Shown here: one piece after another, positions 3,120 to 18,074 of the stretch
How the letters are laid out: each line of letters opens with the position of its first letter
How positions within the stretch are numbered: position 1 is the stretch's first letter
NCBI RefSeq assembly: GCF_024347135.1
Contig: NZ_AP024907.1
Span: forward strand, 611,001-675,000
Direction of reading: 5' to 3'
Source: Vibrio spartinae
GTDB taxonomy: Bacteria > Pseudomonadota > Gammaproteobacteria > Enterobacterales > Vibrionaceae
Length of the DNA stretch: 64,000 bases
Position numbers and translations under genes: made by a program
Notes under the pieces: generated by a model
Told to the model about the DNA's origin: nothing
The model's input: only the letters and a program-made list of their open reading frames with translations
Databases searched by the model: none

Positions 3120-4121
3120 ATGCCTCTCGTATCCTTAAATGAACTGCAACATCAATTTGAAAGTGCCTTGCTCAAAAGGGGCATGCAAGCCGATTCTGCA
3201 ACCCAACTTGCCCAAGGGTTTGTTGAAATGGCGAATGAAGGAACCTACTCACACGGTATCAATCGGTTCCCAGTTTTTATTTCTCAGGTGGATCAAGGGC
3301 ACATCAAACTCAATGCCGAACCTGAGTGTGTCAATAGTCTTGGCGCATTGGAACAGTGGGATTGCCATTTTGGTCCCGGTGTTCTGAATGGGTTGATTTG
3401 TACTGACCGTGCTATTGAACTGGCGAAACAGTATGGGATCGGCATGGTCGCAATGCGCAATTCAAACCACTGGATGCGCGGTGGAACTTACGTTCTCAAA
3501 ATGGCTCGTGCCGGATTGGCTGGCATTGCGTCCACCAACTCTATCGCTGTGATGCCGGCTTGGGGAGGAAAAGATCATCGCGTTGGCAGTAATCCATTAA
3601 TTATGGCCGTAGCGGGAGATCCGCCGGTATTGGTGGATTGTTCAATGAGTCAGTATTCCTATGGTCAACTGCAAAACTATGTGCTGGCCGATAAAGAACT
3701 GCCTGTCGTGGGGGGCTTTGATGATGAAGGTCATCTCACCACTGATCCGCATGTGCTTTGGGAAAACAAACGACTACTCCCCATGGGATTCTGGAAAGGA
3801 TCGTCGATGGCCGTGGTGCTGGACATGCTCCTGACGGCTGTGAGCGGTGGCTATTCCGTCCCTGCGTTAACCGAAGATATGCAAGCTGAATTCGGGGTCT
3901 CGCAGTTTTTGATTGCAATTGATACCAGCAAAACGATGGACGGGGAACGTTTGATCGAAGAGATGAAACGGATCCGAGAATATGTACTCGACTCAGAACC
4001 CGCTGAAAGTGGCAAAGTCATGATTGCGGGATCTGAAATTCAGTCTTATATCGACAAGCATCGACAGCAAGGTGGTATCGAGATTCACGATGAGATTTGG
4101 CAACAGATTCTTGAACTCTAG
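3120..4121 (+). CDS. dlgD: 2,3-diketo-L-gulonate reductase DlgD (YiaK)
   Basis: NAD(P)H-dependent cytoplasmic reductase converting 2,3-diketo-L-gulonate to 3-keto-L-gulonate, the entry step of the E. coli yia-sgb pathway. It belongs to the malate/L-lactate/ureidoglycolate dehydrogenase (LDH2/MDH2) family. The 333-residue length matches E. coli YiaK (332). Motifs include YSHGINRFP with the catalytic His at residue 45, GIGMVAMRNSNHWMRGG, NSIAVMPAWGG and PMGFWKGSSMA. GGAG sits 7 bases before the ATG. It is the first gene of the island's first operon; a YiaL-family gene, second in the E. coli operon, is absent here and found at 16582 instead. It is the only oxidoreductase in the island. Confidence 0.93.
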   Translation: MPLVSLNELQHQFESALLKRGMQADSATQLAQGFVEMANEGTYSHGINRFPVFISQVDQGHIKLNAEPECVNSLGALEQWDCHFGPGVLNGLICTDRAIELAKQYGIGMVAMRNSNHWMRGGTYVLKMARAGLAGIASTNSIAVMPAWGGKDHRVGSNPLIMAVAGDPPVLVDCSMSQYSYGQLQNYVLADKELPVVGGFDDEGHLTTDPHVLWENKRLLPMGFWKGSSMAVVLDMLLTAVSGGYSVPALTEDMQAEFGVSQFLIAIDTSKTMDGERLIEEMKRIREYVLDSEPAESGKVMIAGSEIQSYIDKHRQQGGIEIHDEIWQQILEL

Positions 4122-4134
4122 ATTGACCGTATCA

Positions 4135-4188
4135 GTCGATCTGACAACAAGAGTCGCTCTGACAACAAGAGTCGATCCGATAACAAGC
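4135..4188 (+). repeat. 18-bp tandem repeat, three copies, between dlgD and yiaM
   Basis: Three consecutive 18-bp units beginning GTCG (4135-4152, 4153-4170, 4171-4188), core CTGACAACAAGA. The first two differ at one position and the third is more diverged. The array starts 13 bases after the dlgD stop. Its role is unknown; it belongs to a set of similar gene-border duplications in this window. Confidence 0.85.
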
Positions 4189-4225
4189 ATGATTCAGATA
4201 AGTGAGCATCGCCGGAGAGTTGTAT

Positions 4226-4744
4226 ATGCGTACGGTATTGAAATGGGTTTTGGACAGTATTGACATCATCATGGCAGCGATATTGGTCGCAATGTTGGTG
4301 CTGGTATTTACCAATGTAGTCCTCAGGTATGGATTTTCTTCAGGGCTTAGGGCATCGGTTGAATTGTCTCGTCTGGGGTTAGTCTGGGTTGTCATGCTGG
4401 GGGCGGTGATCGTCCTCAAACGTGATGAGCATCTGGCGGTTAAAGAATTTACCGAGAAACTCATGCCGTGCTGGGTCCCATTCCTCAGACGGTTATGTTG
4501 GTTGATCATTTTGATCTCGGTCGGGATGCTGTTTTATGGCGCATTTGGTCAGATGATGGCGAACTGGCGCGATATCTCGCCTTTGACCGGTCTGCCGTCG
4601 GCGCTGTTTTATCTTGCCGGTGCGATTTCCGGCGGGTTGATGGCTATTCTAGCGGCAGGACGGATCTTTTTCCCACAGTGGTTGATTGACCATTCTGCGC
4701 ATGACGCAACTGCGGCAACACAGACGCAGGAGGATAAAGCATGA
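4226..4744 (+). CDS. yiaM: TRAP transporter small membrane subunit YiaM
   Basis: DctQ-type small integral membrane subunit of the TRAP transporter that imports 2,3-diketo-L-gulonate, working with YiaN and YiaO. I chose the ATG at 4226 because GGAGAG at 4214-4219 lies 6 bases upstream; a GTG at 4202 is in frame but lacks a site. The product is 172 residues with four hydrophobic segments; E. coli YiaM has 157. Family-like stretches include NVVLRYGFSS near residue 30 and LTGLPSALFYLAG. The stop overlaps yiaN by ATGA, implying coupled translation of the two membrane subunits. Confidence 0.88.
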   Translation: MRTVLKWVLDSIDIIMAAILVAMLVLVFTNVVLRYGFSSGLRASVELSRLGLVWVVMLGAVIVLKRDEHLAVKEFTEKLMPCWVPFLRRLCWLIILISVGMLFYGAFGQMMANWRDISPLTGLPSALFYLAGAISGGLMAILAAGRIFFPQWLIDHSAHDATAATQTQEDKA

Positions 4745-6021
4745 CGCTATTTATCTTCTTAACGGTCTTGATTGTTTCGATCCTTTTGGGATTACCCGTA
4801 GCCTTTGCATTACTCCTATCGTCAATCGCACTGATGGTGCACATGGATCTGTTCAGCTCTGACATTCTGGCTCAGTCGCTGATCAATGGTGTTGATAGCT
4901 TTACGCTGCTGGCTATTCCATTCTTCCTGGTTGCCGGTGAGGTGATGTCGGCTGGTGGGTTATCGACGCGAATTGTCCGGTTGGCGAGCTGCTATGTCGG
5001 TCACCGTAAAGGTGGGTTGGGGTATGTCGCCATTATGACATCGGTTCTGCTTGCCGGGCTTTCCGGCTCTGCGGTTGCTGATGCTGCGGCACTGGTCAGT
5101 ATTCTTTATCCGATGATGAAAGCCGCCAAATACCCGCAGAGCTCATCGATGGGTCTGTTGGCTGCGGGCGGCATCATCGCCCCGGTCATTCCCCCGTCTC
5201 TGCCGTTAATCTTGGTTGGGGTTGCCGGTAGTATTTCGATTAAGAATCTATTTCTCGGTGGGATTGTGCCCGGTATTTTAATGGGATTAACACTGATGTT
5301 TGTCTGGGCGTTCACCGTCAGAAGCGAAGATCTGGATGTGCAGCCCAAAGCCTCAAGCGCGGAGAAACGAGCAGCGCTAAAAGATGGGATTTGGGCGCTA
5401 TTGTTACCCGTTATCATTATTGGTGGGATCCGCTTTGGTATCTTTACCCCGACAGAAGCTGCGGTTGTGGCGGCAGTATATGCCATCTTTGTGGCTTCGG
5501 TGATATACCGGGAAATCAATCTACGCAGCTTTTATCACATCCTACTTAATGCCGGACGTTCGACCGCGATGGTGATGTTCTTGGTCGGATGTGCGATGGT
5601 CGCCGCCTGGCTGATTACGGTCGCTCAGCTACCGCAACAACTGGCGCAGATGCTGGCACCGTTGATTGACAGTCCGCGTCTGCTGATGGCAGTCATTATG
5701 CTGCTGGTTTTGTGTGTCGGTATGGTGATGGATCTGAGCCCGACCATTCTGATTCTTGTGCCGCTCCTGATGCCTGTTGTCAAACTGGCAGGGATCGACC
5801 CTACCTATTTTGGACTGATGTTCGTGATCAACTGTTCGATCGGTTTGATTACGCCACCGGTTGGCACCGTGCTCAATGTCGTGTGTGGCGTGGCAAAAGT
5901 GCCAATGTCGGCGGCGGTCAAAGGCATCTTTCCATTTATTCTGGCGTACTCCGTGTTACTCACGCTGTTCGTCATCTTCCCGAGCATTATAACAATACCA
6001 ATGAAACTTATTATCGGATAA
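4741..6021 (+). CDS. yiaN: TRAP transporter large membrane subunit YiaN
   Basis: DctM-type large permease subunit of the 2,3-diketo-L-gulonate TRAP transporter, inner membrane, driving substrate uptake with a sodium or proton gradient as is general for the family. The 426 residues match E. coli YiaN (425). About twelve hydrophobic segments are seen, with the DctM hallmarks GLSGSAVADAAAL near residue 110, GGIIAPVIPPSLP near 145, and MDLSPTILILVPLLMP near 330. Start and yiaM stop overlap as ATGA. Confidence 0.93.
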   Translation: MTLFIFLTVLIVSILLGLPVAFALLLSSIALMVHMDLFSSDILAQSLINGVDSFTLLAIPFFLVAGEVMSAGGLSTRIVRLASCYVGHRKGGLGYVAIMTSVLLAGLSGSAVADAAALVSILYPMMKAAKYPQSSSMGLLAAGGIIAPVIPPSLPLILVGVAGSISIKNLFLGGIVPGILMGLTLMFVWAFTVRSEDLDVQPKASSAEKRAALKDGIWALLLPVIIIGGIRFGIFTPTEAAVVAAVYAIFVASVIYREINLRSFYHILLNAGRSTAMVMFLVGCAMVAAWLITVAQLPQQLAQMLAPLIDSPRLLMAVIMLLVLCVGMVMDLSPTILILVPLLMPVVKLAGIDPTYFGLMFVINCSIGLITPPVGTVLNVVCGVAKVPMSAAVKGIFPFILAYSVLLTLFVIFPSIITIPMKLIIG

Positions 6022-6033: not shown

Positions 6034-7008
6034 ATGAAATCAATTCTGAAAGTCGCAGGCTTGGTGACAGCACTGGCAGTGTTCACAACCCAGTCTTATG
6101 CCACCACGTTGAAGCTTGCCCATGCTGCACCTGAATCGGATCTGCAACAGGACATGTCACTTTTCTTTAAAAAAGAAGTCGAAGCGCGTTCTCACGGGGA
6201 TATCAAAGTGAATATCTTCCCTCAAGGACAATTGGGAAATGATAAGCAGATGATTGATGGTACCCGGGCGGGGATCATTGATATCTCGATGGTTGGACTG
6301 AATAACTGGTCTGGCTTAATCCCTGAGTCGGCTGCTTTCACTTTGCCATTCATTTTTCCGAATCGGGAAGCCGCTTATAAGGCATTGGACGGTGATGTCG
6401 GCCAGGATGTGCTTAAGTCGATGGAAAAATATGGCATTAAAGGGTTGGGATATCCGGAAAACGGTTTTCGTAATATGACCAATAATCGTGGACCAATCCG
6501 TAAACCGGCAGATGTCGCCGGGTTGAGAATGCGAGTGAATAATTCCAAAGCACTCAATGATATGTTCAATGCATTAGATGCGAATCCCCAACAGATCCCT
6601 GTCTCTGAACTTTATACCGCCTTAGAAACCGGCGTGGTCGATGCGCAGGATCATCCCATTGGTGTCACCCTGTCTTTCAAGTTCTATGAAGTACAGAAAT
6701 ATTTGAGTATGACGCAACACGCATATTCACCGCTGGTCTTAACCATGAACTTAAAGAGCTTCAAAAAACTCAGCGCTGCTGAACAGAAAATTATCACAGA
6801 TGCTGCAACTGAAGCCGTCAATATGCAGCGCCAAATGAGTATTAAGCGAGAAGATCAGATGATCGCTGAATTGGAATCTCATGGGATGAAAGTCAACCGC
6901 GATGTCGATGGCGCAGCATTTCAGGCTGTGGTGAAACCGGTTTGGAATGAATTTATCAAAGAAAACGGTGACGACATGATCAATCGTATTTTGGCGACTC
7001 AAAAATAA
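6034..7008 (+). CDS. yiaO: TRAP transporter periplasmic binding protein YiaO
   Basis: Periplasmic DctP-family solute receptor delivering 2,3-diketo-L-gulonate to YiaMN. The first 23 residues form a signal peptide ending SYA before TTLKLAH. The family's substrate-clamping Arg region is LRMRVNNS at residues 164-171, and a DPxQIPxSELYTAL-type stretch follows near 185. Length 324 compares with 328 for E. coli YiaO. It starts 12 bases after yiaN with CGGAG upstream. Two hairpins follow its stop, suggesting differential stability of this abundant-product message. Confidence 0.92.
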   Translation: MKSILKVAGLVTALAVFTTQSYATTLKLAHAAPESDLQQDMSLFFKKEVEARSHGDIKVNIFPQGQLGNDKQMIDGTRAGIIDISMVGLNNWSGLIPESAAFTLPFIFPNREAAYKALDGDVGQDVLKSMEKYGIKGLGYPENGFRNMTNNRGPIRKPADVAGLRMRVNNSKALNDMFNALDANPQQIPVSELYTALETGVVDAQDHPIGVTLSFKFYEVQKYLSMTQHAYSPLVLTMNLKSFKKLSAAEQKIITDAATEAVNMQRQMSIKREDQMIAELESHGMKVNRDVDGAAFQAVVKPVWNEFIKENGDDMINRILATQK

Positions 7009-7027
7009 AGTCAGCGATGAATGAGGC

Positions 7028-7091
7028 TTTCGGTGTGCGGTGCTGCTGTACACCGAAATTCAGAGGAGAAATATCGACAAGGCTTGTCGAT
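7028..7091 (+). promoter_or_regulatory. Two intercistronic hairpins between yiaO and sgbE
   Basis: First hairpin: TTTCGGTGT (7028-7036) with ACACCGAAA (7050-7058), 13-base loop, no T-run. Second: ATCGACAA (7073-7080) with TTGTCGAT (7084-7091), 3-base loop, ending directly against the sgbE ribosome-binding site AGGAG (7092-7096). The first probably protects the 3' end of the yiaO segment; the second could tune sgbE translation. Pairing is seen; function is inferred. Confidence 0.55.
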
Positions 7092-7101
7092 AGGAGCATG
7101 T

Positions 7102-7800
7102 ATGTATTCTGAAATCAAACAACGCGTATTCGATGCGAATCTGAGTCTGCCGAAGTATGGTCTGGTGACATTCACATGGGGCAATGTCTCTGAGATTGAT
7201 CGGGCGAGTCATATTATCGCGATCAAGCCATCGGGTGTGGCATACGATGACATGACGGTCGACGACATCGTCGTCGTCGATCTGGATGGCAATATTGTCG
7301 AAGGGACGTTGAATCCTTCAAGCGATACCAAAACCCACCTGGAACTTTATCAAGCATTTCCAGCGATCGGGGGCATTGTGCATACCCATTCACGTCATGC
7401 CACGATCTGGGCTCAGGCCGGATTGGATATACCTGCGCTCGGAACCACGCATGCCGATTATTTTTACGGCAACATTCCCTGCACTCGTCCGCTGACACCA
7501 GCAGAGATTCAGGGCGACTATGAGCAAAATACCGGCTTGGTGATTATTGAAGCGTTACAGCAGCGACAGATTGATCCGGTTGCTGTACCCAGTGCGATCA
7601 TTGCCGGTCATGCCCCGTTTAGTTGGGGGAAAAATGCCAATGAAGCGGTTCACAATGCCGTGGTTTTGGAAGAAGTCGCAGCAATGGCTCTCGGCACCCG
7701 TTCCCTGAATGCCGACATTATGTTGCAGCAAGAACTTTCGGATAAACATTACTTCCGCAAGCACGGCAAAGATGCCTATTACGGACAAAAGAGTAAATAA
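7102..7800 (+). CDS. sgbE: L-ribulose-5-phosphate 4-epimerase (SgbE/UlaF/AraD family)
   Basis: Zinc-dependent class II aldolase-fold enzyme that converts L-ribulose 5-phosphate to D-xylulose 5-phosphate, the last step of the pathway, which enters the pentose phosphate pathway. With the ATG at 7102 (AGGAG 5 bases upstream) it is 232 residues, matching SgbE/UlaF (231). Likely metal ligands: Asp75 in PSSDT, His94 and His96 in VHTHSRH, His170 in AGHAPFSWG. The substrate-binding [10 protein letters not shown] and C-terminal [14 protein letters not shown] are conserved. Unlike in E. coli, it precedes lyxK rather than ending the operon. Confidence 0.93.
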
Positions 7801-7831: not shown

Positions 7832-9334
7832 ATGGGTCAAAGCACAATGCGTTATTTTCTTGGGATTGATTCCGGTGGCACGGTTCTGAAAGCGGGTCTG
7901 TTTGATTGTCACGGACGTCAAATTGCGTTGTATCGTGAAAATACCCAAGTGATTCGTGAACAACAGGGCTGGATCGAACGGGATTTAACGCTGTATTGGC
8001 AAGAAGCCTGTCGCGCGATTCAAGGGGTGATCAAGCAGAGTGGCATCCGTCCGGCGCAGATTTGCGGTCTGAGTATTTCGGCACAGGGCAAAGGGCTCTA
8101 TTTGCTGGATAAACACGGACAAGCGTTGCGTCATGGCATTCTGTCGTCTGATTCCCGTTCTATCGAAATTGTCAGACAGTGGCAACAAGACGGCATTCCT
8201 CAGACGATTTACCCTCTGACCCGTCAGACTTTATGGACGGGGCATCCCGTGTCGATCCTGCGCTGGGTGAAAGAATATGAACCTGATATTTATGCGCAGA
8301 TCGGTGCGGTCTTGATGTCACACGACTATTTACGTTACCGCCTGACCGGCGAGATCCGGGCAGAGGTGACCAATATGTCGGAAAGTAATCTCTATCATGC
8401 TGACAAGCAACAGTACGATCCGGCACTCCTGTCGATATTTGGTATTGAAGAAGTTTGGCCGGCACTGCCTGAGTTGATTTATCCTGCAGAATGTTCCGGT
8501 ACGATCAACGAAGACGCTGCCCAAGCCACCGGATTAATGGTTGGCACACCGGTTTATGGTGGGTTATTCGATGTGGTTTCGACCGCGATCTGTTCCGGAA
8601 TTGATGCCGGGCAACCGATGCTGAATGCGGTGATGGGGACTTGGTCGGTGACTTCCGGGATCACGACCGATCTTGAAGATCACCCTGATGAGCAGTTTGT
8701 TTACGGACATTATGCGATGCCCGGTGCTTATATTGTCCATGAAGCCAGCCCGACATCAGCGAGCAACTATGAATGGTTCGCCCCTTATCTGGGGGGTGAA
8801 AAGATCGATCATCAGGAGAATGAGCGTCTAGTCAGCGCACTGGCGCCATTAGCCAGTGACGTGCTCTTTGTGCCTTTTCTGTATGGCTCTAACGCGGGGC
8901 TGGGGTTGAAAGGATCGTTATATGGATTGCAGGCTTATCACAGCAAAGCCCATCTCATTCAGGCGATCTGGTTGGGCATCTTGTTTTGTCATCATGTCCA
9001 TCTGCAAAAAATGTTACATCGTTTCCCTGAAACCCGTGTGTTACGGGTGACCGGCGGTACCACACAGTCACCGACCTGGATGCAGATGCTGGCCGATTTA
9101 ACCGGACTGATACTCGAAATTCCCGCAGTCGAGGAAACCGGCGCATTAGGGGCCGCTCTCGTCTCAATGGTTGGCAGTGGTACTTATCCCGATCTCGCCA
9201 CTGCATTGGCTGCCTCAGATATCCCGATAGAAACGGTTCATCCCAATCCTGATTTATATGACAGTTATCAAAGTCAGTATAAACGCTATCTACGCTATGT
9301 CGAAACGCTGAAAAATTTTGAGGAAATTGTATGA
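7832..9334 (+). CDS. lyxK: L-xylulose/3-keto-L-gulonate kinase LyxK
   Basis: FGGY-family carbohydrate kinase. In this pathway it is expected to phosphorylate 3-keto-L-gulonate to its 6-phosphate; the E. coli enzyme also acts on L-xylulose. Start chosen at 7832 (MGQSTMRYFLG) because GGAG lies at 7822-7825; product 500 residues against 498 in E. coli. The N-terminal phosphate loop is GIDSGGTVLKAGLFD (residues 11-25), SISAQGKGLYLLD follows, the probable catalytic base is Asp247 in GGLFDVVST, and ATP-side motifs include MGTWSVTSG and RVTGGTTQSPTW. The stop overlaps sgbH by ATGA. Confidence 0.93.
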   Translation: MGQSTMRYFLGIDSGGTVLKAGLFDCHGRQIALYRENTQVIREQQGWIERDLTLYWQEACRAIQGVIKQSGIRPAQICGLSISAQGKGLYLLDKHGQALRHGILSSDSRSIEIVRQWQQDGIPQTIYPLTRQTLWTGHPVSILRWVKEYEPDIYAQIGAVLMSHDYLRYRLTGEIRAEVTNMSESNLYHADKQQYDPALLSIFGIEEVWPALPELIYPAECSGTINEDAAQATGLMVGTPVYGGLFDVVSTAICSGIDAGQPMLNAVMGTWSVTSGITTDLEDHPDEQFVYGHYAMPGAYIVHEASPTSASNYEWFAPYLGGEKIDHQENERLVSALAPLASDVLFVPFLYGSNAGLGLKGSLYGLQAYHSKAHLIQAIWLGILFCHHVHLQKMLHRFPETRVLRVTGGTTQSPTWMQMLADLTGLILEIPAVEETGALGAALVSMVGSGTYPDLATALAASDIPIETVHPNPDLYDSYQSQYKRYLRYVETLKNFEEIV

Positions 9335-9981
9335 ACCCGACACAACCTTATTTGCAAATCGCACTGGATTCGACGGATCTGAGTACCGCCTTAAATGATG
9401 TTGATCATGTCGCGGATGTCGTCGATGTGATTGAAGTCGGTACGGTACTGGCTTTCTCAGAAGGTATGAGTGCGGTTAAGACGCTTCGGCAACACTATCC
9501 CCGACATATATTGGTGTGTGATATGAAGTTGCTTGATGCCGGAGAAACATTAGCGGAGATGGCATTTGCCAGCGGCGCGAACTGGATTACTGTCGGTGCG
9601 GCCGCACATATTGAAACCGTCCGCTCAGCTCAGCGGGTTGCGCAGCAATTTGACGGTGAAATTCAGATTGAACTGTTCGGACACTGGACAATTGAGGACG
9701 CGAAACTCTGGGTAGAAAGTGGTGTGACACAGGCGATTTATCACCGCTCCCGGGATGCACAGGCTGCCGGTGTGGGGTGGGGGGAGCATGATTTGATGCA
9801 AATGGAACAATTATCTGAGGTCGGGCTTGAACTCTCGATTACGGGTGGTATTGTTCCGGAAGATATTCATTTGTTTAAGAATATCCGTGCAAAATCGTTC
9901 ATCGCTGGACGCGCACTGTCAAACCAAGAGGGCAAAACCATTGCCCGTGAATTTCGCAAACAGATCAACCACTACTGGTAA
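9331..9981 (+). CDS. sgbH: 3-keto-L-gulonate-6-phosphate decarboxylase SgbH
   Basis: Magnesium-dependent decarboxylase of the orotidine-5'-phosphate decarboxylase suprafamily producing L-xylulose 5-phosphate and CO2. 216 residues (E. coli SgbH 220). The beta-barrel motifs are readable: ALD at 11-13, Glu35 in VIEVGT, the DxKxxD signature as Asp64-Lys66-Asp69, IELFGHW, and the phosphate-binding end LSITGGI and FIAGRAL. Translationally coupled to lyxK by an ATGA overlap. KGPDC and hexulose-phosphate synthase are close relatives; the neighbours decide for the former. Confidence 0.93.
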   Translation: MNPTQPYLQIALDSTDLSTALNDVDHVADVVDVIEVGTVLAFSEGMSAVKTLRQHYPRHILVCDMKLLDAGETLAEMAFASGANWITVGAAAHIETVRSAQRVAQQFDGEIQIELFGHWTIEDAKLWVESGVTQAIYHRSRDAQAAGVGWGEHDLMQMEQLSEVGLELSITGGIVPEDIHLFKNIRAKSFIAGRALSNQEGKTIAREFRKQINHYW

Positions 9982-10775: not shown

Positions 10776-10793
10776 TTGAAAAGGATACCAGCG

Positions 10794-11663
10794 ATGAACA
10801 ACCATACCCTCAAATCTCGCATCGGCTTATATGAAAAGGCGATGCCGGCAACGCTATCGTGGGAAGATCGTCTCAGAGAAGCGAAATCACTTGGCTTCGA
10901 TTTTGTCGAAATTTCTGTCGATGAAACCGACGCTCGGCAACAACGGCTGGACTGGGGAGATGATGAGATTGATCAGCTTCGTCAGCTCTGTTTTCAGTAC
11001 GACATACCATTACAAAGCATGTGTTTGAGTGCGCACCGTAAGTACCCATTTGGCTCTGAACATCCACAGGTTCGAGAAAAAGCCCGTGAGATTATGGAAA
11101 AAGCCATCAAACTAGCCTACCGACTGGGGATCCGGACCATTCAATTGGCTGGATACGATGTCTATTATGAGTCTCAATCAGTGCAGACCCACCAGCGTTT
11201 TATTGAAGGAATGCGTTGGGCCGCGAAGCTGGCAGAGCGGGCTGGCGTGATGTTGGCGGTTGAAATCATGGATACGCCCTATCTGAATTCGTTATCCAAA
11301 TTTGAAGTCTTAAAACGGGAAGTCCCGTCCCCTTATTTTATGGCTTATCCCGATGTCGGTAATATCACGGGCTGGAATCACGATGTTTGTACCGAGCTGA
11401 AACTGGCCCGGGATCATCTGGTGCAGATTCATCTCAAAGATACGCTGAAAGTGAAACACGGTTTTTCCGGGAAGTTTCGGGATTTGGTGATCGGTGAAGG
11501 CGAAGTTGATTTTCCGGCTATTTTTACGGCACTCAAAGAGATTCACTACGGTGCCCCGTTTGTGATCGAAATGTGGGCTCACGATGAGCACTGGCGAGAC
11601 AATATCATCACCGCCAAACAGCGTTTAACCGAGATGGCGCACAGCGTCGGGTTTGAGCTATAA
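10794..11663 (+). CDS. sgbU: L-xylulose-5-phosphate 3-epimerase SgbU (UlaE family)
   Basis: Converts L-xylulose 5-phosphate to L-ribulose 5-phosphate between SgbH and SgbE. AP-endonuclease-2-type TIM barrel. I take the ATG at 10794 since AAGGA is at 10781-10785; 289 residues (E. coli SgbU 286). Conserved stretches are GLYEKAMP, FDFVEISVDETD, SMCLSAHRKYPFGS, TIQLAGYDVYYE, and the metal-site motifs AVEIMDT, YPDVGN, HLKDT and FVIEMW. Last gene of the first operon, followed by a terminator at 11704. Confidence 0.93.
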   Translation: MNNHTLKSRIGLYEKAMPATLSWEDRLREAKSLGFDFVEISVDETDARQQRLDWGDDEIDQLRQLCFQYDIPLQSMCLSAHRKYPFGSEHPQVREKAREIMEKAIKLAYRLGIRTIQLAGYDVYYESQSVQTHQRFIEGMRWAAKLAERAGVMLAVEIMDTPYLNSLSKFEVLKREVPSPYFMAYPDVGNITGWNHDVCTELKLARDHLVQIHLKDTLKVKHGFSGKFRDLVIGEGEVDFPAIFTALKEIHYGAPFVIEMWAHDEHWRDNIITAKQRLTEMAHSVGFEL

Positions 11664-11703
11664 GCTGTTTTCTACTCGTTAGTTTTCCAGATTCAATTGC
11701 TGA

Positions 11704-11733
11704 TAAGGCGCGTGTCAACGCGCCTTATTTTTC
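11704..11733 (+). terminator. Rho-independent terminator after sgbU
   Basis: TAAGGCGCG (11704-11712) pairs with CGCGCCTTA (11719-11727) around a 6-base loop, followed by a T-rich tract. It ends the nine-gene diketogulonate operon. Confidence 0.88.
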
Positions 11734-11998
11734 ATTTCGATCCATGATGACCGTTGAGGGGGATCCTAAGCCGAAACAGGATTCGCAGCAAATGTGATCC
11801 AATTCACTTAAAGATCAAAAACAAACGACATCTCTATCAAATACAGATCTTGCTCACTTTTTGAACACAAAAAACACTATAACTTAATTTGGAATTTAAA
11901 AGAATATTATTCCACATTATGGAATTTAAGCGTGATTGATTACGTGATTGGCTGTGCGCTGATATCCCGCAAAACAGTCATATCATCATGAGGTATCT
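11734..11998 (+). promoter_or_regulatory. Promoter region of the ABC/lactonase operon with IclR-type palindrome (11909-11925)
   Basis: Spacer upstream of the second operon. A possible -10 TATAAC lies at 11878-11883 with only a weak -35. The 17-bp sequence ATTCCACATTATGGAAT (11909-11925) has perfect 6-bp half-sites ATTCCA/TGGAAT; compared with the site at 2982-2998 the differences are transitions at every position but one. A further TGGAAT half-site lies at 11890-11895. Placement just downstream of the possible -10 would suit repression. GAGG at 11990-11993 is the ribosome-binding site of the next gene. Confidence 0.55.
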
Positions 11999-13537
11999 AT
12001 GGAAGTGCTCAACAATCCACAAGGAAGCCTGCTCTCGATTGATCGGTTAACCAAGCGATTCTTTAATTTTATTGCATTGGAGTCCGCTTCTTTCCATGTT
12101 CATCCGGGACGTTGTGTGGCGTTACTTGGAGAAAATGGTGCCGGAAAGTCTACCTTGATTAAAACGCTGGCCGGTATTCATAAAAAAACCGCTGGTGAGA
12201 TTCGCTTTAAAGGGGAATCGATTGAGGATGCCGCGCATTTAGCGTCAGCCAATCAAGTTCCCATTGCTTTTATTCATCAGGATCTTGGCTTGATCGAATG
12301 GATGACGGTTGCGGAGAACATCGGTTTAACACTCGGTTTTCCGAAACGCTGGGGGATGATCAACTGGAAAGCCGCAGCAGAAAAAGCCCAGCAAGTTCTG
12401 GATTTAGTCGGATTAGATGTGAAAGCGTCTGAGCGCATTTTTAACTTAAGTGCGGCAGAAAAATCCTTACTGGCCATTGCCCGTGCCTTGGTCGCTGATG
12501 CGGAGGTTTTGATCTTAGATGAGCCGACGGCTTCTCTTGTTGCCAGTGATGTCGGCCGGATGTTTGAGGTTTTGAAACGTCTGAAAGCACAAGGGGTGGG
12601 GATGATTTATGTCTCCCATCGACTGGATGAGATTCATGATATTTGCGATGACGTTGTGGTGTTACGCGATGGGCGTTTAGTGGGGTCAGGGTTGGTCAGT
12701 GACTACACCATTGATGAGCTGGTCACTTTGATCGTCGGTTCGCAAAAAGAGATGAATTATCGTACGCCCCTCCAGCCGGAGCAGGATGATATTTTGCAAG
12801 TGCGCAATCTACAACTCGGTGATTTAGAGCCGTTTAATATGAGGTTGCGTCATGGCGAGCTGGTTGCTTTGGTTGGTCTGCGCAATGCCGGACAAGAAGC
12901 GATTGGGCAGGCGTTATTTGGGTGTCTCAATCTCAAGTCCGGTGAGGTGTTCATTCGCGGAGAAAAGGCCGATATCAGTTCACCGGCGAAGAGTATTCGT
13001 AGTGGATTTGCCATGGTGGCGGCTGATCGGGTCAAAGAGAGTATTTGCGGCTCAATGAGCGCGATGGAAAACCTCAATTTAAATCCGACCATCAATGGTG
13101 GCGGTTATCTGACCTTCCTGTCAAAGCCTCAAGAATATCGTCAGACTCTCGAGGCGATGAAGCAATATGACGTTCGCCCGATGGATCCTGACATTGCGAT
13201 CAGTTCGATGAGCGGCGGTAATCAGCAAAAAGTGATTCTGGCTCGCTGGTTCAATCTGAATAAGCCCATTGTCATTTTGGATAATCCAACGGCGGGTGTT
13301 GATATCGGTGCTCGTTCTGAAATCTATCGGATCATGCGTGAGTCAATTCGGCAGGGATTGTCTGTGATTGTCATTTCCAGTGACTTTGAAGAGGTGGTGA
13401 ATATCTCGAATCGGGCATTGGTGTTTAACCGGGGAAAAGTGGTGAAAGAGCTGACCGAACAGCAAGTGACGGTGGCGAATTTATTGAAGTATGCATCAGG
13501 TTCAAAAGTAGGAGAGGGCGAATATGGCGACGTCTAA
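11999..13537 (+). CDS. Sugar ABC transporter ATPase with two nucleotide-binding domains (RbsA/XylG type)
   Basis: 512-residue cytoplasmic ATPase of a CUT2-class importer. The first domain has Walker A GENGAGKS (about residue 44), a non-canonical signature NLSAAEKS and Walker B LILDEPTAS. The second has the degenerate Walker A of the class (GLRNAGQEAIG), a canonical SMSGGNQQK, and a Walker B reading ILDNPTAGVD where Asn replaces the usual catalytic Glu. It opens the second operon of the island and overlaps the permease gene by 14 bases. Substrate is not determined by sequence; context suggests an ascorbate-related lactone. Confidence 0.87.
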   Translation: MEVLNNPQGSLLSIDRLTKRFFNFIALESASFHVHPGRCVALLGENGAGKSTLIKTLAGIHKKTAGEIRFKGESIEDAAHLASANQVPIAFIHQDLGLIEWMTVAENIGLTLGFPKRWGMINWKAAAEKAQQVLDLVGLDVKASERIFNLSAAEKSLLAIARALVADAEVLILDEPTASLVASDVGRMFEVLKRLKAQGVGMIYVSHRLDEIHDICDDVVVLRDGRLVGSGLVSDYTIDELVTLIVGSQKEMNYRTPLQPEQDDILQVRNLQLGDLEPFNMRLRHGELVALVGLRNAGQEAIGQALFGCLNLKSGEVFIRGEKADISSPAKSIRSGFAMVAADRVKESICGSMSAMENLNLNPTINGGGYLTFLSKPQEYRQTLEAMKQYDVRPMDPDIAISSMSGGNQQKVILARWFNLNKPIVILDNPTAGVDIGARSEIYRIMRESIRQGLSVIVISSDFEEVVNISNRALVFNRGKVVKELTEQQVTVANLLKYASGSKVGEGEYGDV

Positions 13538-14561
13538 TATTAAATCGACCGCATTAGAGACGGAGGTCACTCTCTCTTCGGGGATTGGGAATTTCATCAC
13601 TCAGATTGCAATGCGTTATGGCCTATTACTATTAACGATATTTTTAATCCTGTTGTTTAGTCTGACGACCAACACCTTTTTTTCAATGCTGACGCTACAG
13701 GCCATTTTGAGTGAAAAGAGCGTTGTTGCCATTCTTGCTTTAGCAGCGATGGTGACCATGATCACCGGCAAAATGAACCTCAATGTTGGGTTTGGTGTCA
13801 CGTTCTGGCATGTCTTTGCCATTACGCTACAGCAACGGTATGGGTTCTCCTGGGAAGCTGCGGCATTGATTGTTGTGCTGTGCGGGTGTTTGTATGGTGC
13901 ATTTAACGGCATGTTGGTGGCGTTGGCTGATATTGACTCTTTCGTGGCAACGTTAGGCACCGGGACTGTCATTTATGCCGTGTCACTATGGCACACCGGT
14001 GGCCGTCAGATCGTCGGTGTATTGCCGGAGAATTTTTATCTGTTCAGCAGCTATGAAATTGTCGGCATTCCGATCATCGTGTTCTACCTGCTCGCTATCA
14101 CGCTACTGCTCTGGCTGGTGACTGAATATACCGCTTTAGGGCGCAAACTCTATGCCGTCGGTGCGAATCCGAATACTGCATCCTTAAATGGCATCAACAC
14201 AACCTCTTGTTACATTGGCGCTTACGTGGTCTCGGATGGGTTGATCGCTTTTGCCAGTGTGTTATTGGCCTCTCATATCGGGATCGGTTCTTCTTCGGTT
14301 GGTCAGGACTACATGTTACCGGCTCTGGTCGGCGCATTCTTAGGCTCAACCACATTTCGGGCCGGGCGGGTTAACGTCTGGGGGACCTTGATCGGGGTTT
14401 CTCTGGTCAGTGTCGGGATTTCAGGTCTTCAACAGTGGGGCACTCCATTCTTTGTCGAGCCGTTATTCAATGGCGCGATTCTCTTAATTTCCATCACTTT
14501 GGCTGGCTTTAGCCAAAAACGTAAACAAACAGCAACCAAAAATAATGTGAAGGTGAAATAA
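13524..14561 (+). CDS. Sugar ABC transporter permease (RbsC type)
   Basis: 345-residue inner-membrane permease of the BPD_transp_2 family with eight to ten hydrophobic segments. Family features are the LTTNTFFSMLTLQAILSEKS region near residue 50, ITGKMNLNVG (a variant of the usual GGIDLSVG), LGTGTVIYA, and TALGRKLYAVGANPNTASLNGIN. GGAGAGG (13511-13517) lies 6 bases before the ATG inside the ATPase gene. One permease gene implies a homodimer. Confidence 0.88.
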   Translation: MATSNIKSTALETEVTLSSGIGNFITQIAMRYGLLLLTIFLILLFSLTTNTFFSMLTLQAILSEKSVVAILALAAMVTMITGKMNLNVGFGVTFWHVFAITLQQRYGFSWEAAALIVVLCGCLYGAFNGMLVALADIDSFVATLGTGTVIYAVSLWHTGGRQIVGVLPENFYLFSSYEIVGIPIIVFYLLAITLLLWLVTEYTALGRKLYAVGANPNTASLNGINTTSCYIGAYVVSDGLIAFASVLLASHIGIGSSSVGQDYMLPALVGAFLGSTTFRAGRVNVWGTLIGVSLVSVGISGLQQWGTPFFVEPLFNGAILLISITLAGFSQKRKQTATKNNVKVK

Positions 14562-15676
14562 TGAAAAGACGAGTCAAAATACTAGCCATGGTGATCGGTG
14601 CTGCATTCACAACCCTACCAGTGCTTGCTGATGAAGCATCAGATTATGTTGAGATGGCAAAGCAGGTTGTCAAACAGGCATCAACCGATAGTGCTGCTGC
14701 CTTTTCACTCCCCGAAGGACCCGTTGCAGCCAAGGATAAGACGATTATTTTTATTGCTTCTGATCTGAAAAATAGTGGTGTTTTAGGTGTGATGAAAGGC
14801 TATCAGGAAGCAGCGAAAGCCATTGGCTGGCATGTGCGAGTGCTTGACGGGGCTGGTAGTGTGCCATCACAGTCATCTGCTCTGAAGCAAGCCATCGCGT
14901 TGCAGCCGGATGGGATTATCGTTGGTGGATTCACCCCCAATACGATGATTCCAACGCTGCGTCAGGCGCACAAGCTAGGCATTCGGATTGTCAGTTGGCA
15001 CGCCACTCCCGAGCCCGGGCCGATTGAGAAACTCTATATTGAAGATAACATCACCAGTTCGGCTGATGATGTTGCCAAAGTCTCAGCGATGTATGCGATT
15101 GCTAAGTCCAATGGTCATGCGCATGTCGTAATTTTGACCGATGGTTTATACAGTATCGCGGTACGTAAAGCGGACGTGATGAAATCTTATATTGAAAAAT
15201 GTACCGGATGCTCTGTGCTGAGCTATGAAGATACGCCACTGGCCAATACATCAGCGCGGATTCCGCCTCTCACATTCTCGCTGGTTCAGAAGTATGGTGA
15301 TAAGTATAACTATACGCTGGCAATCAATGACCTCTATTTCGACTACATGGCTCCGGCGCTTCGTTCACTGTCCGGTAAGAAAAAAGGGGAAGGCCCTTAT
15401 AATATCTCTGCCGGAGATGGCAGTGAATCTGCATTTGAGCGCATTCGTAATGGTAGTTTTCAGGTCGCAACTGTCGCTGAACCGTTAAACCTGCATGGAT
15501 GGCAGTTAGTCGATGAACTCAATCGATTGTTCCATGATCAACCCACCAGCGGTTATGTCACGCCGGCACACTTAGTCACGGCAGAGAATATTCATCAGTC
15601 AGGTGGGGATCGCAATTTATACGATCCGGAGAATGGCTATCGCGATTATTACAAAGCGTCTTGGAAAGTGAACTGA
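14561..15676 (+). CDS. Sugar ABC transporter periplasmic binding protein
   Basis: 371-residue periplasmic receptor of the type I (Peripla_BP_4, ribose-binding-like) fold for the ABC importer. A signal peptide of about 23 residues ends PVLA before DEASDY. Fold landmarks include IIFIASDLKNSGVLGVMKGYQEAAKAIG (two pieces, residues about 63-91), QSSALKQAIALQPDGIIVGG, GIRIVSWHA, and a late domain-crossing segment. Two Cys in KCTGCSV are an unusual CxxC. Its start shares one base with the permease stop (TAATG). It is longer than typical ribose-type receptors and does not betray a particular ligand. Confidence 0.85.
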   Translation: MKRRVKILAMVIGAAFTTLPVLADEASDYVEMAKQVVKQASTDSAAAFSLPEGPVAAKDKTIIFIASDLKNSGVLGVMKGYQEAAKAIGWHVRVLDGAGSVPSQSSALKQAIALQPDGIIVGGFTPNTMIPTLRQAHKLGIRIVSWHATPEPGPIEKLYIEDNITSSADDVAKVSAMYAIAKSNGHAHVVILTDGLYSIAVRKADVMKSYIEKCTGCSVLSYEDTPLANTSARIPPLTFSLVQKYGDKYNYTLAINDLYFDYMAPALRSLSGKKKGEGPYNISAGDGSESAFERIRNGSFQVATVAEPLNLHGWQLVDELNRLFHDQPTSGYVTPAHLVTAENIHQSGGDRNLYDPENGYRDYYKASWKVN

Positions 15677-15687: not shown

Positions 15688-16572
15688 ATGTCTTTTGAAG
15701 CGGCTCTGTTGTCGCCACTGCATCAGGTCAGTGGCGGTCATATCTGGTGCGAGGGGGCTGCATGGTTGCAGCACTCTGGTCAACTGCTGTTTTCGGATGT
15801 AAAGAAGAATGCACTCTATCTTTATCACCCCGATTCTCACGTAACAGAACTCGTCACGGATTACTCACATTTTGCGAATGGTAATTACTCACTGGCTAAT
15901 GGTGATGTGGTGACATGCGAACACGGGCGGCGCTGTCTTTCTATTCGGCACAAAAACAATCTGGCACTCGCCAAGGTTTTGGTTGATAAGTATGATGGTA
16001 AACGGCTCAACTCACCGAATGATGTTGTTGAGCGTCGCTCGGATGGGACGATTTGGTTTACGGATCCGCCATACGGGATTATCAGTGATGCGGAGGGGTA
16101 TAAATCGGAGAGTCAGATAGTCGGGTGTTATATCTACTGTTATGATCCGAAGGATGATTCATTGACGATTGCATCGACCGATATTCAGCGACCCAATGGT
16201 CTGGTTTTTTCTCCCGATGAAACAACCCTGTATGTGGCGGATATGTCGATTGTTGATTTTCCAACGCAGGGGTTAAAACACTTGAAAGCCTTTGATGTAC
16301 ATGGAAAAGTGCTATCTCAAGGGCGTTTGGTTTATCAAGTGGAACACGGTATCCCTGACGGGATGACCATGGACCGTTTCGGAACGCTCTATTGCAGTTC
16401 GTCTGAGGGGGTTTTAGTGCTCAATCGTGAGATGGCGCTGGTGGGATGTATTCCCGTGCCTGAGACGGTTTCTAACTGTACGCTGAATCACGATGAAAGT
16501 ACGCTATATATCACGGCATCGACTTCGGTTTATGCTATCGATCTCAACTGCCAGACATTGGCAGAATTATAA
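15688..16572 (+). CDS. SMP-30/gluconolactonase-family lactonase
   Basis: 294-residue six-bladed beta-propeller, divalent-metal-dependent lactone hydrolase; no signal peptide, so cytoplasmic. All four metal ligands of the family can be read: Glu22 (WCEGAAW), Asn111 (LNSPNDVV), Asn170 (QRPNGLVF) and Asp224 (GIPDGMT). ATG at 15688 chosen for GAGG at 15679-15682; a TTG further upstream would overlap the previous gene. Sitting behind the ABC importer, it likely opens the lactone ring of the imported sugar; delactonising dehydro-L-ascorbate would give 2,3-diketo-L-gulonate, the substrate of DlgD. Substrate is inference. Confidence 0.88.
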   Translation: MSFEAALLSPLHQVSGGHIWCEGAAWLQHSGQLLFSDVKKNALYLYHPDSHVTELVTDYSHFANGNYSLANGDVVTCEHGRRCLSIRHKNNLALAKVLVDKYDGKRLNSPNDVVERRSDGTIWFTDPPYGIISDAEGYKSESQIVGCYIYCYDPKDDSLTIASTDIQRPNGLVFSPDETTLYVADMSIVDFPTQGLKHLKAFDVHGKVLSQGRLVYQVEHGIPDGMTMDRFGTLYCSSSEGVLVLNREMALVGCIPVPETVSNCTLNHDESTLYITASTSVYAIDLNCQTLAEL

Positions 16573-16581
16573 GGAATTATT

Positions 16582-17070
16582 ATGTTCGCTTGCCATTTTC
16601 GTGCCTCTGATTATCGTGCTTTGTTACCCGAACTCTTTGTCCGTGCGATTGACTATGTGACGACCCAAGATTTGAATGCGCTTGACCCCGGACGTCATAC
16701 CATTCCCGGCATCGATCAGGATGATGCTTTTTTTATGATCCTCGATTATCAAACGGCGGCAGAAAGCTCGGTTGGTCCTGAATTTCATCACAAATATTGT
16801 GATGTTCAGTTTATTATTCAGGGAGAAGAACAGTTTGGCTGGACTGAATTGACCGATGAGCAACATCAGCAGCTATCGCATGACTATCATTATGACCCAC
16901 AAAAAGATATCTGTTTCTTTGATCAACAACTCATGACTCTCTCTTATGAGACCATGTCTCATGATCAATTCTATCTGTTTACACCGAGAACTGCCCATAT
17001 GCCGAATCTCTCGGTCACCACCACATCACAGGTTCGCAAAGTTGTGATTAAAATTAAATATCCGGCTTGA
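16582..17070 (+). CDS. YiaL/YhcH/YjgK-family protein (DUF386), probable sugar anomerase-like
   Basis: 162-residue cupin-like protein of the family that includes E. coli YiaL, YhcH (NanQ) and TabA. The metal-site region is recognisable: EFHHKYCDVQFIIQGEEQFGW (residues about 71-91, given in overlapping pieces EFHHKYCDVQ and FIIQGEEQFGW) and a late His in TPRTAHMPNL. YhcH is reported to open the cyclic form of sialic acid; by analogy this protein might open a hemiketal of diketogulonate or dehydroascorbate. E. coli has yiaL right after yiaK; here it ends the ABC/lactonase operon instead. Function is inferred. Confidence 0.8.
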   Translation: MFACHFRASDYRALLPELFVRAIDYVTTQDLNALDPGRHTIPGIDQDDAFFMILDYQTAAESSVGPEFHHKYCDVQFIIQGEEQFGWTELTDEQHQQLSHDYHYDPQKDICFFDQQLMTLSYETMSHDQFYLFTPRTAHMPNLSVTTTSQVRKVVIKIKYPA

Positions 17071-17100
17071 TTGAGTCTGTCCGTGTGACCATTGATATCG

Positions 17101-17172
17101 AGCGCATGGTTTATTCGAATACATGGTTTATATCAAATACATGTTTTATATCAAATACATGTTTTATATCAA
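17101..17172 (+). repeat. 18-bp tandem repeat, four copies, after the YiaL-family gene
   Basis: Units at 17101-17118 (diverged), 17119-17136, 17137-17154 and 17155-17172, consensus ATACATGTTTTATATCAA; the last two are identical. A second, separate direct repeat GTTTTGTGAAAAATGGTT follows at 17180-17197 and 17209-17226. Both lie in the 251-bp space before the second IclR-type gene, which otherwise holds nothing recognisable. Confidence 0.85.
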
Positions 17173-17321
17173 ATATATAGTTTTGTGAAAAATGGTTGGT
17201 GACAAATTGTTTTGTGAAAAATGGTTTTGTGGAAATACGCTATCGATTGATACGCAAGACTGTATTTCATTGTCATTGGAAATTGAAGTGTGGTGGAAGC
17301 CGCAAGCACTATTGAGTCACT

Positions 17322-18074
17322 ATGCAATCCGTACATAAAACCTTTGAAGTCCTGGAGACTGTTGCTGTCGCTTCGGATGGGATGAGCCTTGATGCTTTGT
17401 GCAAGGTGATACCATATCCGAAAACGACGGTACACAGAATCTGTAAATGCCTGTGTCAGTGTGGTTATCTCCGTCAGGCAGAGAATGGAAAATACTATCT
17501 GACGACGAAGATGATCACCTTAGGTTATTCGGTGATCCATCATGATGCGTTTGTCACGGAAGCCGCCCCCTATATGGCAGCACTTGCTGAGCGAACTGGA
17601 TTTACGGTCAATTTACAACGGCGTGATTTTGATAAAGTGATTCTGTTGAAAAAAGAAGAACCTAAGAATTCGGTCTTTCATACCAATGCTCATGCCGGAT
17701 TGGCTTCATCGCTGTTGCATTCCGCTTGCGGTAAAGTGGTTTTATCCTATTTCTCCCCGGATGAACAACAGAAGTGCTGGGAGAGTCATCAGCATGATTT
17801 GGCGAGTTTTCGCCATTTCGGTCAGGCAGAAATCCATACAGATCATGATTTTTACCGAGAGCTGGCACTCATCAGACAACAAGGATTTGCGGTTGACGGG
17901 GAAGGCAATGAATCCGGGATTACTTGTATTGCTGTACCACTGGAAACCGATCAGCTTGTCAACTATGCCATCAGTGTCTCGGGGCTGACACCGGAAATTC
18001 ATCGGTTTGGGCAGACGCAATTAGTTGAGCGACTCCGAGACGTGGTTGGCACGCTGGGAGGCAAAATACGTTAG
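17322..18074 (+). CDS. IclR-family transcriptional regulator (second of the island)
   Basis: 250-residue regulator with an N-terminal winged helix-turn-helix (TFEVLETVAVASDGMSLD, YPKTTVHRICKCL, residues about 6-45) and the IclR effector domain (HSACGKVVLSYFS, QQGFAVDGEGNESGITCIAVPLE). It is only distantly similar to the regulator at 10011. It is separated from the ABC/lactonase operon by repeats and probably has its own promoter. It is the natural candidate for the palindrome at 11909-11925. The N-terminal helix is Cys-rich (KCLCQCGY), which is unusual and might allow redox sensing, though that is speculation. It converges on panC. Confidence 0.87.
   Translation: MQSVHKTFEVLETVAVASDGMSLDALCKVIPYPKTTVHRICKCLCQCGYLRQAENGKYYLTTKMITLGYSVIHHDAFVTEAAPYMAALAERTGFTVNLQRRDFDKVILLKKEEPKNSVFHTNAHAGLASSLLHSACGKVVLSYFSPDEQQKCWESHQHDLASFRHFGQAEIHTDHDFYRELALIRQQGFAVDGEGNESGITCIAVPLETDQLVNYAISVSGLTPEIHRFGQTQLVERLRDVVGTLGGKIR

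Follow-up and report, generated by a model that had tools for sequence, protein, structure and literature searches.

A co-oriented gene island of Vibrio spartinae joins a diketogulonate catabolic operon to a second importer, a lactonase and a second regulator, which raises the question of what the additional uptake unit brings into the cell and how it connects with the pathway beside it. The locus was analysed within a window of 64,000 nucleotides, the whole stretch of DNA under study. The reading we consider probable is that the island gives the oxidation products of vitamin C two routes of entry into one pathway, with the ABC transporter and the lactonase handling the closed ring.

Two operons between yadH and panC

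All named genes at 3120-18074 are open, co-oriented reading frames in the ORF list, supported by Pfam/NCBIfam matches (Table 1). Operon one (3120-11663) carries 2,3-diketo-L-gulonate (DKG) genes with a TRAP importer, and operon two (11999-18074) an ABC importer, an SMP-30 lactonase, a YiaL-like protein and an IclR regulator. The island is flanked by yadG/yadH on one side and by panC (18145, minus strand) on the other. The initial annotation took it for an insertion at this junction, and the yadH-panC interval across Vibrio bears this out: among 126 genomes common to the best 150 of 224 panC and the best 150 of 223 yadH genomes, a table that leaves out genomes with weaker matches and includes four pairs on different contigs, the gap is shorter than 500 bp in 103 and spans 15.4-17.1 kb in seven, all seven carrying the island, which excludes the same genes occupying the interval in all vibrios. 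Two other long gaps, in G182 (22 kb) and G062 (54 kb, first 15 kb), were considered as signs of an integration hotspot; they gave housekeeping and signalling genes, with no integrase and no island among the 10 ORFs scanned, and PADLOC found no match in five ORFs of the G182 interval. A foreign composition was likewise rejected, the G+C content of 0.479 in the island against 0.462 in the window giving no compositional sign of recent arrival. In comparisons with three close relatives, the ratio of nonsynonymous to synonymous substitution is 0.02-0.15 for all 15 island genes, which indicates that the genes are maintained; the comparison with a further, more distant relative was mostly saturated.

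Table 1. Genes and candidate regulatory sites of the island, with positions in the window
Feature	Position	Strand	Remarks
Intrinsic terminator-like hairpin after yadH	2631..2656	+	consensus scan only
Candidate IclR1 operator TTTCG-N5-TGAAA upstream of dlgD	2983..2997		one mismatch
dlgD/yiaK, 2,3-diketo-L-gulonate reductase	3120..4121	+	46% to E. coli YiaK
yiaM-like TRAP small permease	4202..4744	+	below equivalog cut-off; 35% to E. coli YiaM
yiaN-like TRAP large permease	4741..6021	+	below equivalog cut-off; 57% to E. coli YiaN
yiaO-like TRAP solute-binding protein	6034..7008	+	39% to E. coli YiaO
sgbE/araD-type L-ribulose-5-phosphate 4-epimerase	7021..7800	+	60% to SgbE; true start probably near 7102
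lyxK-like FGGY kinase	7832..9334	+	51% to LyxK; FGGY domains; ORF open from 7709, start predicted from GGAG-ATG
sgbH, 3-keto-L-gulonate-6-phosphate decarboxylase	9331..9981	+	54% to SgbH
iclR1, PlaR/YiaJ-like regulator inside operon	10011..10775	+	41% to PlaR
sgbU, L-xylulose-5-phosphate 3-epimerase	10776..11663	+	54% to SgbU
Intrinsic terminator-like hairpin separating the operons	11702..11729	+	consensus scan only
CRP-like site TGTGATCCAATTCACT	11793..11808	+	kept in 8/14 distinct genomes
Candidate IclR2 operator ATTCCA-N5-TGGAAT	11909..11925		3 places in the 5.19 Mb genome
abcA, two-domain sugar-type ABC ATPase	11999..13537	+	Pfam/NCBIfam
abcP, BPD_transp_2 permease	13524..14561	+	Pfam/NCBIfam
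abcS, exported sugar-type binding protein (Peripla_BP_4)	14561..15676	+	N-terminal signal-like sequence; sugar-binding-protein fold
sgl, SMP-30/gluconolactonase-family lactonase	15688..16572	+	PF08450; no signal-like N-terminus; ORF open from 15661, start predicted
yiaL-like DUF386 protein of the ABC unit	16582..17070	+	Pfam/NCBIfam
iclR2, regulator of the ABC unit	17322..18074	+	34% to PlaR

The diketogulonate pathway

By family membership, operon one is the known yia-sgb pathway, as had been proposed. DlgD (NF009750, 472.9 against 316 bits), SgbE (NF006047, 384 against 257), SgbH (NF009832, 310 against 250) and SgbU (TIGR00542, 338.6 against 272) all score above their equivalog or subfamily cut-offs, and YiaN, YiaO and the pathway enzymes share 39-60% identity with their E. 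coli counterparts; the enzyme identities are those we take from these families and from the E. coli pathway. The best matches of YiaM and YiaN are the 2,3-DKG TRAP models, at scores below the cut-offs (76.7 against 260 and 544 against 800), and YiaO matched general DctP models only. The kinase reaches the cut-off of no NCBIfam kinase model and is tentatively assigned by its FGGY domains and its identity to LyxK.

The TRAP transporter would import open-chain 2,3-diketo-L-gulonate, already opened outside the cell, which DlgD would convert to 3-keto-L-gulonate and the LyxK-like kinase to the 6-phosphate; SgbH would then yield L-xylulose 5-phosphate, SgbU L-ribulose 5-phosphate and SgbE D-xylulose 5-phosphate.

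The order of these genes is less peculiar than first supposed. The regulator does lie inside the operon, between sgbH and sgbU, but an internal iclR and an early sgbE also occur in fetched TRAP clusters outside the close clade of the window, so that a reshuffling special to this island is not upheld. Nor does yiaL appear to have moved: a yiaL stands between sgbE and lyxK in seven of the 11 TRAP clusters fetched from outside that clade, and G188 has such a copy together with a different yiaL, which belongs to an ABC unit on a separate contig. The window therefore most likely lost one yiaL and kept that of the ABC unit.

The ABC importer and the lactonase

The two-domain ATPase, BPD_transp_2 permease and Peripla_BP_4 binding protein of operon two make up a sugar-type (RbsA-like) ABC importer. 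The fold of AbcS did not yield its substrate, the matches being generic sugar-binding proteins at 14-21% identity. The lactonase matches PF08450 at 108 bits against a threshold of 26.3, and its EG, SPND, PNGL and PDG motifs, which we take to hold the residues of the metal site, align with 3dr2 with the Glu, Asn, Asn and Asp positions conserved. It is 39-42% identical to PdxA-linked lactonases against 40-43% to rhizobial SMP-30 proteins, of which the single context viewed belongs to neither the DKG nor the PdxA pathway. A tree was rejected as a guide to the substrate, since it leaves the joining of the groups unsettled; with the lactonase no closer to the PdxA-linked group, its substrate is not readable from sequence.

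The transporter would import a closed lactone, most likely dehydro-L-ascorbate and less likely ascorbate, which the cytoplasmic lactonase would open to 2,3-diketo-L-gulonate for the DlgD route, while the YiaL-like protein may act on cyclic forms, converting one into another. Dehydroascorbate also opens spontaneously; the lactonase is therefore not strictly needed, which counts against this reading.

Distribution and gene neighbourhoods

Loci were collected by homology to AbcS, and all counts refer to the fetched flanks of the best 80 of 99. An ORF overlap filter dropped the high-GC loci L064 and L073 from a first count; the recount restores both and is used throughout, except for dlgD without yiaN, taken from the first count. 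A complete abcA-abcP-abcS set is present in 34 of these 80 loci, and 32 of the 34 include the lactonase (missing from two); in none of the remaining 46 did a lactonase or dlgD match pass its threshold. Of the 32 ABC-lactonase loci, again among the best 80 of 99, 18 carry dlgD, 22 carry dlgD or lyxK/sgbH, and four (three in the first count) have PdxA or propeller genes reminiscent of another ascorbate pathway, although the propeller Pfam matches are weak or below cut-off (L038 being one of the four). Six (L009, which ends at a contig end, L025, L028, L030, L064 and L073) have neither pathway in the flank. Three dlgD loci (L029, L031 and L034) combine ABC and lactonase with no TRAP in the flank; uptake there may depend on the ABC unit alone.

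Vibrio, Psychromonas, Pasteurellaceae and Pantoea all have examples of the cassette. A close abcS (at least 75%) occurs in 11 of 227 Vibrio genomes, all 11 with a close dlgD (at least 74%), which is present in 36 genomes overall; 14 of 15 fetched Pasteurellaceae loci with ABC and lactonase also have dlgD. A Pantoea plasmid holds abcAPS-lactonase-yiaK-yiaL-MFS-kinase-ulaD-3-epimerase-araD in one run, and on a Salmonella plasmid an MFS-lactonase pair adjoins iclR and the same enzymes. In Caballeronia/Trinickia, relatives of the ABC transporter and the lactonase adjoin PdxA and a YncE-like propeller, and in Sphingomonas lactonase, propeller, PdxA, rhamnonate dehydratase and AraD1 stand together with cytochrome b561, clusters that presumably correspond to the benzilic-acid ascorbate pathway.

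These neighbourhoods bear on the possibility that the ABC-lactonase unit handles another lactone or sugar acid, such as L-gulono-1,4-lactone or another aldonolactone, and adjoins the DKG operon because sugar acids pass through both and DlgD interconverts a shared intermediate. Aldonolactones are common substrates of SMP-30 proteins, idonate/gluconate-type genes lie beside a relative of the ABC transporter in Rhizobium, and L029, L031 and L034 have an extra gene after the lactonase, which in the single case scanned encodes an SDR dehydrogenase. We nevertheless consider this unlikely: the island ORFs of the window include no dehydrogenase besides DlgD that would bring L-gulonate into the route, the known DlgD path starts at 2,3-DKG and accompanies the unit in the 18 dlgD loci, and the other partner pathway, with PdxA and propeller, also passes through 2,3-DKG.

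Alternatively, the ABC transporter might bring in open-chain 2,3-DKG as an additional importer of high affinity, with the lactonase acting after entry on residual dehydroascorbate or on delta-lactones of DKG. DKG is the meeting point of the two units, and the three dlgD loci without TRAP in the flank fit this view. The retention of both importers in 16 of the 32 loci (best 80 of 99) argues against simple redundancy, however, and the pairing of lactonase with a sugar-type importer in 32 of 34, together with the second regulator and different operator of the vibrios with iclR2, suits a ring-form substrate better, which makes this explanation very unlikely.

Regulatory sites

Two different palindromes precede the two operons, which fits two IclR regulators. 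IclR1 would act at TTYCG-N5-CGRAA sites before dlgD, where five close relatives have a perfect TTTCG-N5-CGAAA palindrome, and IclR2 at TTCCA-N5-TGGAA sites before abcA, the second promoter being also under predicted CRP control. Class G operators were found in 17 of 19 regions upstream of dlgD (0.51 expected) and class A operators in 12 of 14 before abcA (0.24 expected), counts in which six of the 14 abcA regions come from near-identical clade members, the shuffles keep single-base content only and the genome-duplicating rows L009, L010, L011 and L143 are dropped. The classes overlap: class A scores also occur in six of 19 dlgD regions (five through hybrid sites), and class G scores in two of 14 abcA regions. 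The abcA regions lacking class A are those of L013, whose ORF start is probably too far upstream (site at +19), and of G200, which is without iclR2 in the fetched region and has class G before abcA. The PlaR box of E. coli, given as ATnTGAAACnnnGTTCAnTT (PMC6958661), is unlike both palindromes.

The CRP-like site is the only TGTGA-N6-TCACT match in the window (0.11 expected), and CRP sites show no clear enrichment before dlgD (seven of 21 regions, 4.63 expected). Autoregulation of iclR2 was rejected, no class A site preceding it in 14 rows (one 33 bases long, one a duplicate of the window). Promoter-like sites at 2500-18300 were not in excess over shuffles (19 found, 24.5 expected).

Relation to known systems

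The chemistry of the island is mostly known, and its new part is the uptake step of ABC transporter and lactonase. In Haemophilus influenzae, HI1024-HI1031 has ulaDEF, Lyx and 2,3-DKG reductase in common with the island, whereas the excerpted description mentions no ABC-lactonase (PMC3928620). The E. coli yiaK-sgbE genes (yiaKLMNOPQRS) have in common with it the reductase, decarboxylase, epimerases and IclR regulator, and probably the TRAP transporter and kinase; the K-12 yia-sgb region differs in gene order, has one yiaL and one divergent regulator (PlaR/YiaJ), and contains neither ABC unit nor lactonase, in agreement with the earlier claim that these are additions. In the benzilic-acid-rearrangement ascorbate pathway of Ralstonia/Cupriavidus, said to have appeared in JACS in 2020, a gluconolactonase-family enzyme reportedly yields 2,3-DKG, and a propeller enzyme, PdxA and the degradation of lyxonate take the place of the DlgD/Sgb enzymes. 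The lactonase family is the point of likeness, and some loci resembling that pathway have a related ABC transporter, but PdxA and the propeller enzyme have no counterpart among the island ORFs in the Pfam/NCBIfam scan.

In oxygenated water ascorbate turns into dehydroascorbate, for which we know of no assigned bacterial transporter; searches of open-licence literature, judged by titles and the starts of abstracts, listed neither bacterial dehydroascorbate uptake nor a DKG-linked ABC-lactonase. We give an even chance to the broader proposal that the ABC transporter and cytoplasmic lactonase form a portable cassette for taking up and opening dehydroascorbate, attached to two unrelated pathways of 2,3-DKG and placed here beside a TRAP transporter for DKG and a PTS for ascorbate. 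If so, one bacterium would have three doors for three states of vitamin C, each separately regulated. Since the cassette recurs across genera, a substrate established in a single binding assay could be extended to a whole transporter family and to a lactonase, and gel shifts could add two IclR operators.

In the Ula pathway, ascorbate is phosphorylated on entry and UlaG is the lactonase. Its last three enzyme types are common to the island, whereas the PTS and UlaG are absent among the island ORFs scanned with Pfam/NCBIfam; a matching, separate ascorbate-type PTS operon (Ula-like) lies elsewhere in the same genome, at about 889-897 kb of G000:C1.

Island and its diketogulonate operon

The window (G000:C1:611001-675000, contig C1 of the host genome G000) belongs to a genome of 5.19 Mb in two contigs. 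The initial annotation had described a diketogulonate island, and this observation was right: 15 ORFs in one orientation run from dlgD through iclR2, flanked by yadG-yadH on one side and panC-panB on the other. Each of the 15 genes shows purifying selection when compared with three close relatives. Because terminator-like hairpins follow yadH and sgbU (consensus scan only), we read the island as two operons. Most of it is ordinary, its pathway being already known: operon one, dlgD to sgbU, is the 2,3-diketo-L-gulonate (2,3-DKG) pathway. In a profile search, DlgD, SgbH, SgbU and SgbE score above curated cut-offs, and the kinase and TRAP subunits fall into the expected families with scores below equivalog cut-offs. 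Identities to the K-12 proteins are 46% for YiaK, 35% for YiaM, 57% for YiaN, 39% for YiaO, 51% for LyxK, 54% for SgbH, 54% for SgbU and 60% for SgbE; the internal regulator IclR1 has 41% identity to PlaR.

We fetched 11 TRAP clusters beyond the close clade of the window (L099, L100, L102, L103, L104, L106, L108, L114-L117). In seven (L102, L106, L108, L114-L117) yiaL lies between sgbE and lyxK, in six of them accompanied by a HAD gene. L104 has the HAD gene alone at this place, without yiaL, and L099 and L100 have neither; in L103, from G200, yiaL follows yiaO, and sgbE, lyxK, sgbH and sgbU are absent within the stretch. Where the genes are present, sgbE precedes lyxK and iclR lies downstream of sgbH, so an early sgbE and an internal regulator are usual in these vibrios.

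Coordinates of features in the window, in the host genome (G000) and in fetched loci (L numbers)
Feature	Sequence	Position	Remark
Island, dlgD to iclR2	window	3120-18074	
CRP-like site (putative)	window	11793-11808	conserved in 8 of 14 distinct genomes
S15 leader RNA	window	58618-58736	ordinary
rimP leader RNA	window	52222-52379	ordinary
Ascorbate-type PTS operon	G000:C1	~889-897 kb	
PTS permease, ascorbate-type EIIC family (L125)	G000:C1	1653788-1654975	605 bits, cut-off 380
PTS permease, ascorbate-type EIIC family (L126)	G000:C1	961840-963024	741.6 bits, cut-off 657
Amidohydrolase and GGDEF protein with VUPS (vitamin uptake-like sensor) domain	L101	4599-7377	beside stand-alone ABC unit of G188
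Second AbcS of G194 (62%)	L105	9285	no recognised ABC genes near; SbmA/BacA-like and RimK-like genes close
Tandem dlgD copies	L099	1770 and 3147	
Tandem dlgD copies	L100	1665 and 3263	

The ABC-lactonase cassette and its partners

Operon two encodes an ABC importer and an SMP-30 lactonase, followed by a YiaL-like protein and another IclR regulator. Its noteworthy part is the ABC-lactonase cassette, a recurrent putative uptake step for an oxidation product of vitamin C; no paper listed in our searches of an open-licence library makes this assignment. Among named records, Vibrio ruber and Vibrio sp. MEBiC08052 are close relatives, with 94% and 93% identity in the binding protein AbcS. Among public loci retrieved through AbcS (best 80 of 99 relatives), 34 carry all three ABC genes, and 32 of these 34 also carry the lactonase; neither the lactonase nor dlgD exceeded thresholds in any of the 46 loci of this set lacking the full ABC importer. 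The 32 ABC-lactonase loci include dlgD in 18, dlgD or lyxK/sgbH in 22, and YiaN as well in 16. PdxA or the propeller protein occurs in four (L035-L038; Pfam scan of L035 genes only), and the remaining six have neither pathway in the fetched flank. The dlgD- or sgb-bearing loci come from Vibrio, Psychromonas, Pasteurellaceae and three proteobacterial bins; in three dlgD loci the ABC importer is present and the TRAP transporter absent from the flank. The AbcS tree (98 rows) places the window inside a 36-row clade (support 100/99) comprising all 26 dlgD-linked rows, three sgb-linked rows, six others and the window.

The lactonase also lies inside full DlgD pathways on annotated plasmids of Pantoea and Salmonella. 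On the Salmonella plasmid NZ_CP030220.1 (L123, typed conjugative), two IclR genes and the complete DlgD pathway accompany an MFS-lactonase pair, the MFS protein being a different importer coupled to the same lactonase family. At three loci the gene after the AbcS relative encodes a signalling-type protein in place of an ABC transporter: in L040 a hybrid histidine kinase, in L053 a HAMP-HATPase protein and in L078 a HAMP-PAS protein.

Proposed substrate of the cassette

The feature common to both partner pathways is 2,3-DKG. The Sphingomonas locus groups lactonase, propeller, PdxA, rhamnonate dehydratase and AraD1 genes, with cytochrome b561 close by; Variovorax has part of this set, PdxA being missing from the stretch, and Caballeronia has PdxA with an enolase-superfamily and a DHDPS-family gene. 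We take these sets to match the benzilic-acid ascorbate pathway; there, ascorbate reportedly undergoes oxidation and then ring opening to 2,3-DKG by a gluconolactonase-family enzyme. Lactone hydrolysis is probably cytoplasmic, since the N-terminus of AbcS is signal-like and that of the lactonase is not. The simplest division of labour would pair a ring substrate, most likely dehydroascorbate and less likely ascorbate, and a cytoplasmic lactonase with a neighbouring importer for the open acid. Against the dehydroascorbate reading, the lactonase is no closer to its PdxA-linked relatives than to rhizobial ones, and its tree lacks resolution where these two groups join. Alignment to 3dr2, an exported gluconolactonase, shows that the lactonase, whose sole match in the genome is itself, retains the motifs of its family. 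AbcS as modelled by AlphaFold (mean pLDDT 84.9, 18-sequence alignment) resembles ribose-, galactofuranose- and other sugar-binding proteins, a predicted fold match that does not fix the ligand.

The same genome contains an ascorbate-type PTS operon with a fused IIBC (NF007094, 737 against 687 bits), EIIA, SgbE-, HAD-, SgbH- and SgbU-like proteins and a DeoR regulator; it also encodes a protein of metallo-beta-lactamase fold, as would be expected of UlaG. Alongside the ABC and TRAP importers, this gene content makes it likely that one cell admits ascorbate, the oxidised lactone and DKG by different routes.

The yadH-panC junction

Our genus-wide set comprised 227 genomes, of which 126 had both yadH and panC among the matches listed. 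The gap is below 500 bp in 103 of these, 500-2500 bp in nine, 2.5-30 kb in nine and above 30 kb in one; in four the genes lie on separate contigs. All seven genomes with a gap of 15.4-17.1 kb (G000, G060, G061, G131, G154, G001, G128) carry the island. G134 has yadH and operon one on one contig, the ABC unit and panC on another; G194 keeps the island gene order with an extra HAD gene and different flanking genes; and G188 has the TRAP cluster and ABC unit on separate contigs. In G200, dlgD-TRAP-yiaL-iclR is convergent with the ABC unit elsewhere, its own yadH-panC junction being closed. AbcS at 75% or above occurs in 11 of the 227 genomes and DlgD at 74% or above in all 11 of these and 36 overall (hypergeometric 4e-10, relatedness ignored). 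The base composition of the island bears no mark of recent arrival.

Second-tier AbcS relatives (41-46% to AbcS; one, in G179, a 56% fragment) were seen in 38 of the 227 genomes. At all seven loci inspected (L107, L109-L113, L118) an ORF of ~830 aa adjoins and no recognised ABC genes are near. The one such ORF scanned encodes HAMP-GGDEF-EAL, with a divergent Peripla_BP_4 gene beside it, which we take to be an NspS-MbaA-like c-di-GMP sensor layout.

Operators and regulators

Two palindromes precede the operons. Of 19 regions upstream of dlgD, 17 contain TTYCG-N5-CGRAA (class G, at most one mismatch), where shuffles give 0.51; of 14 upstream of abcA, 12 contain TTCCA-N5-TGGAA, where shuffles give 0.24, the shuffles being single-base and the scored rows related to one another. 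The two classes are not cleanly separate, because the second type also stands before dlgD in 6 of 19 regions (0.28 expected; five via hybrid sites) and the first before abcA in 2 of 14 (0.53 expected). It would fit that IclR1 reads the first type and IclR2, the regulator ending operon two, the second, since in one genome, G200, the fetched region is without iclR2 and has the first type before abcA. The extended form ATTCCA-N5-TGGAAT is found at three places genome-wide. The two dlgD regions without class G belong to G001 and G128, where dlgD is in tandem and the first copy is the one concerned. In the tandem loci L099 and L100, the upstream dlgD is without the class G palindrome; one copy matches the window DlgD at 85% and the other at 74-75%.
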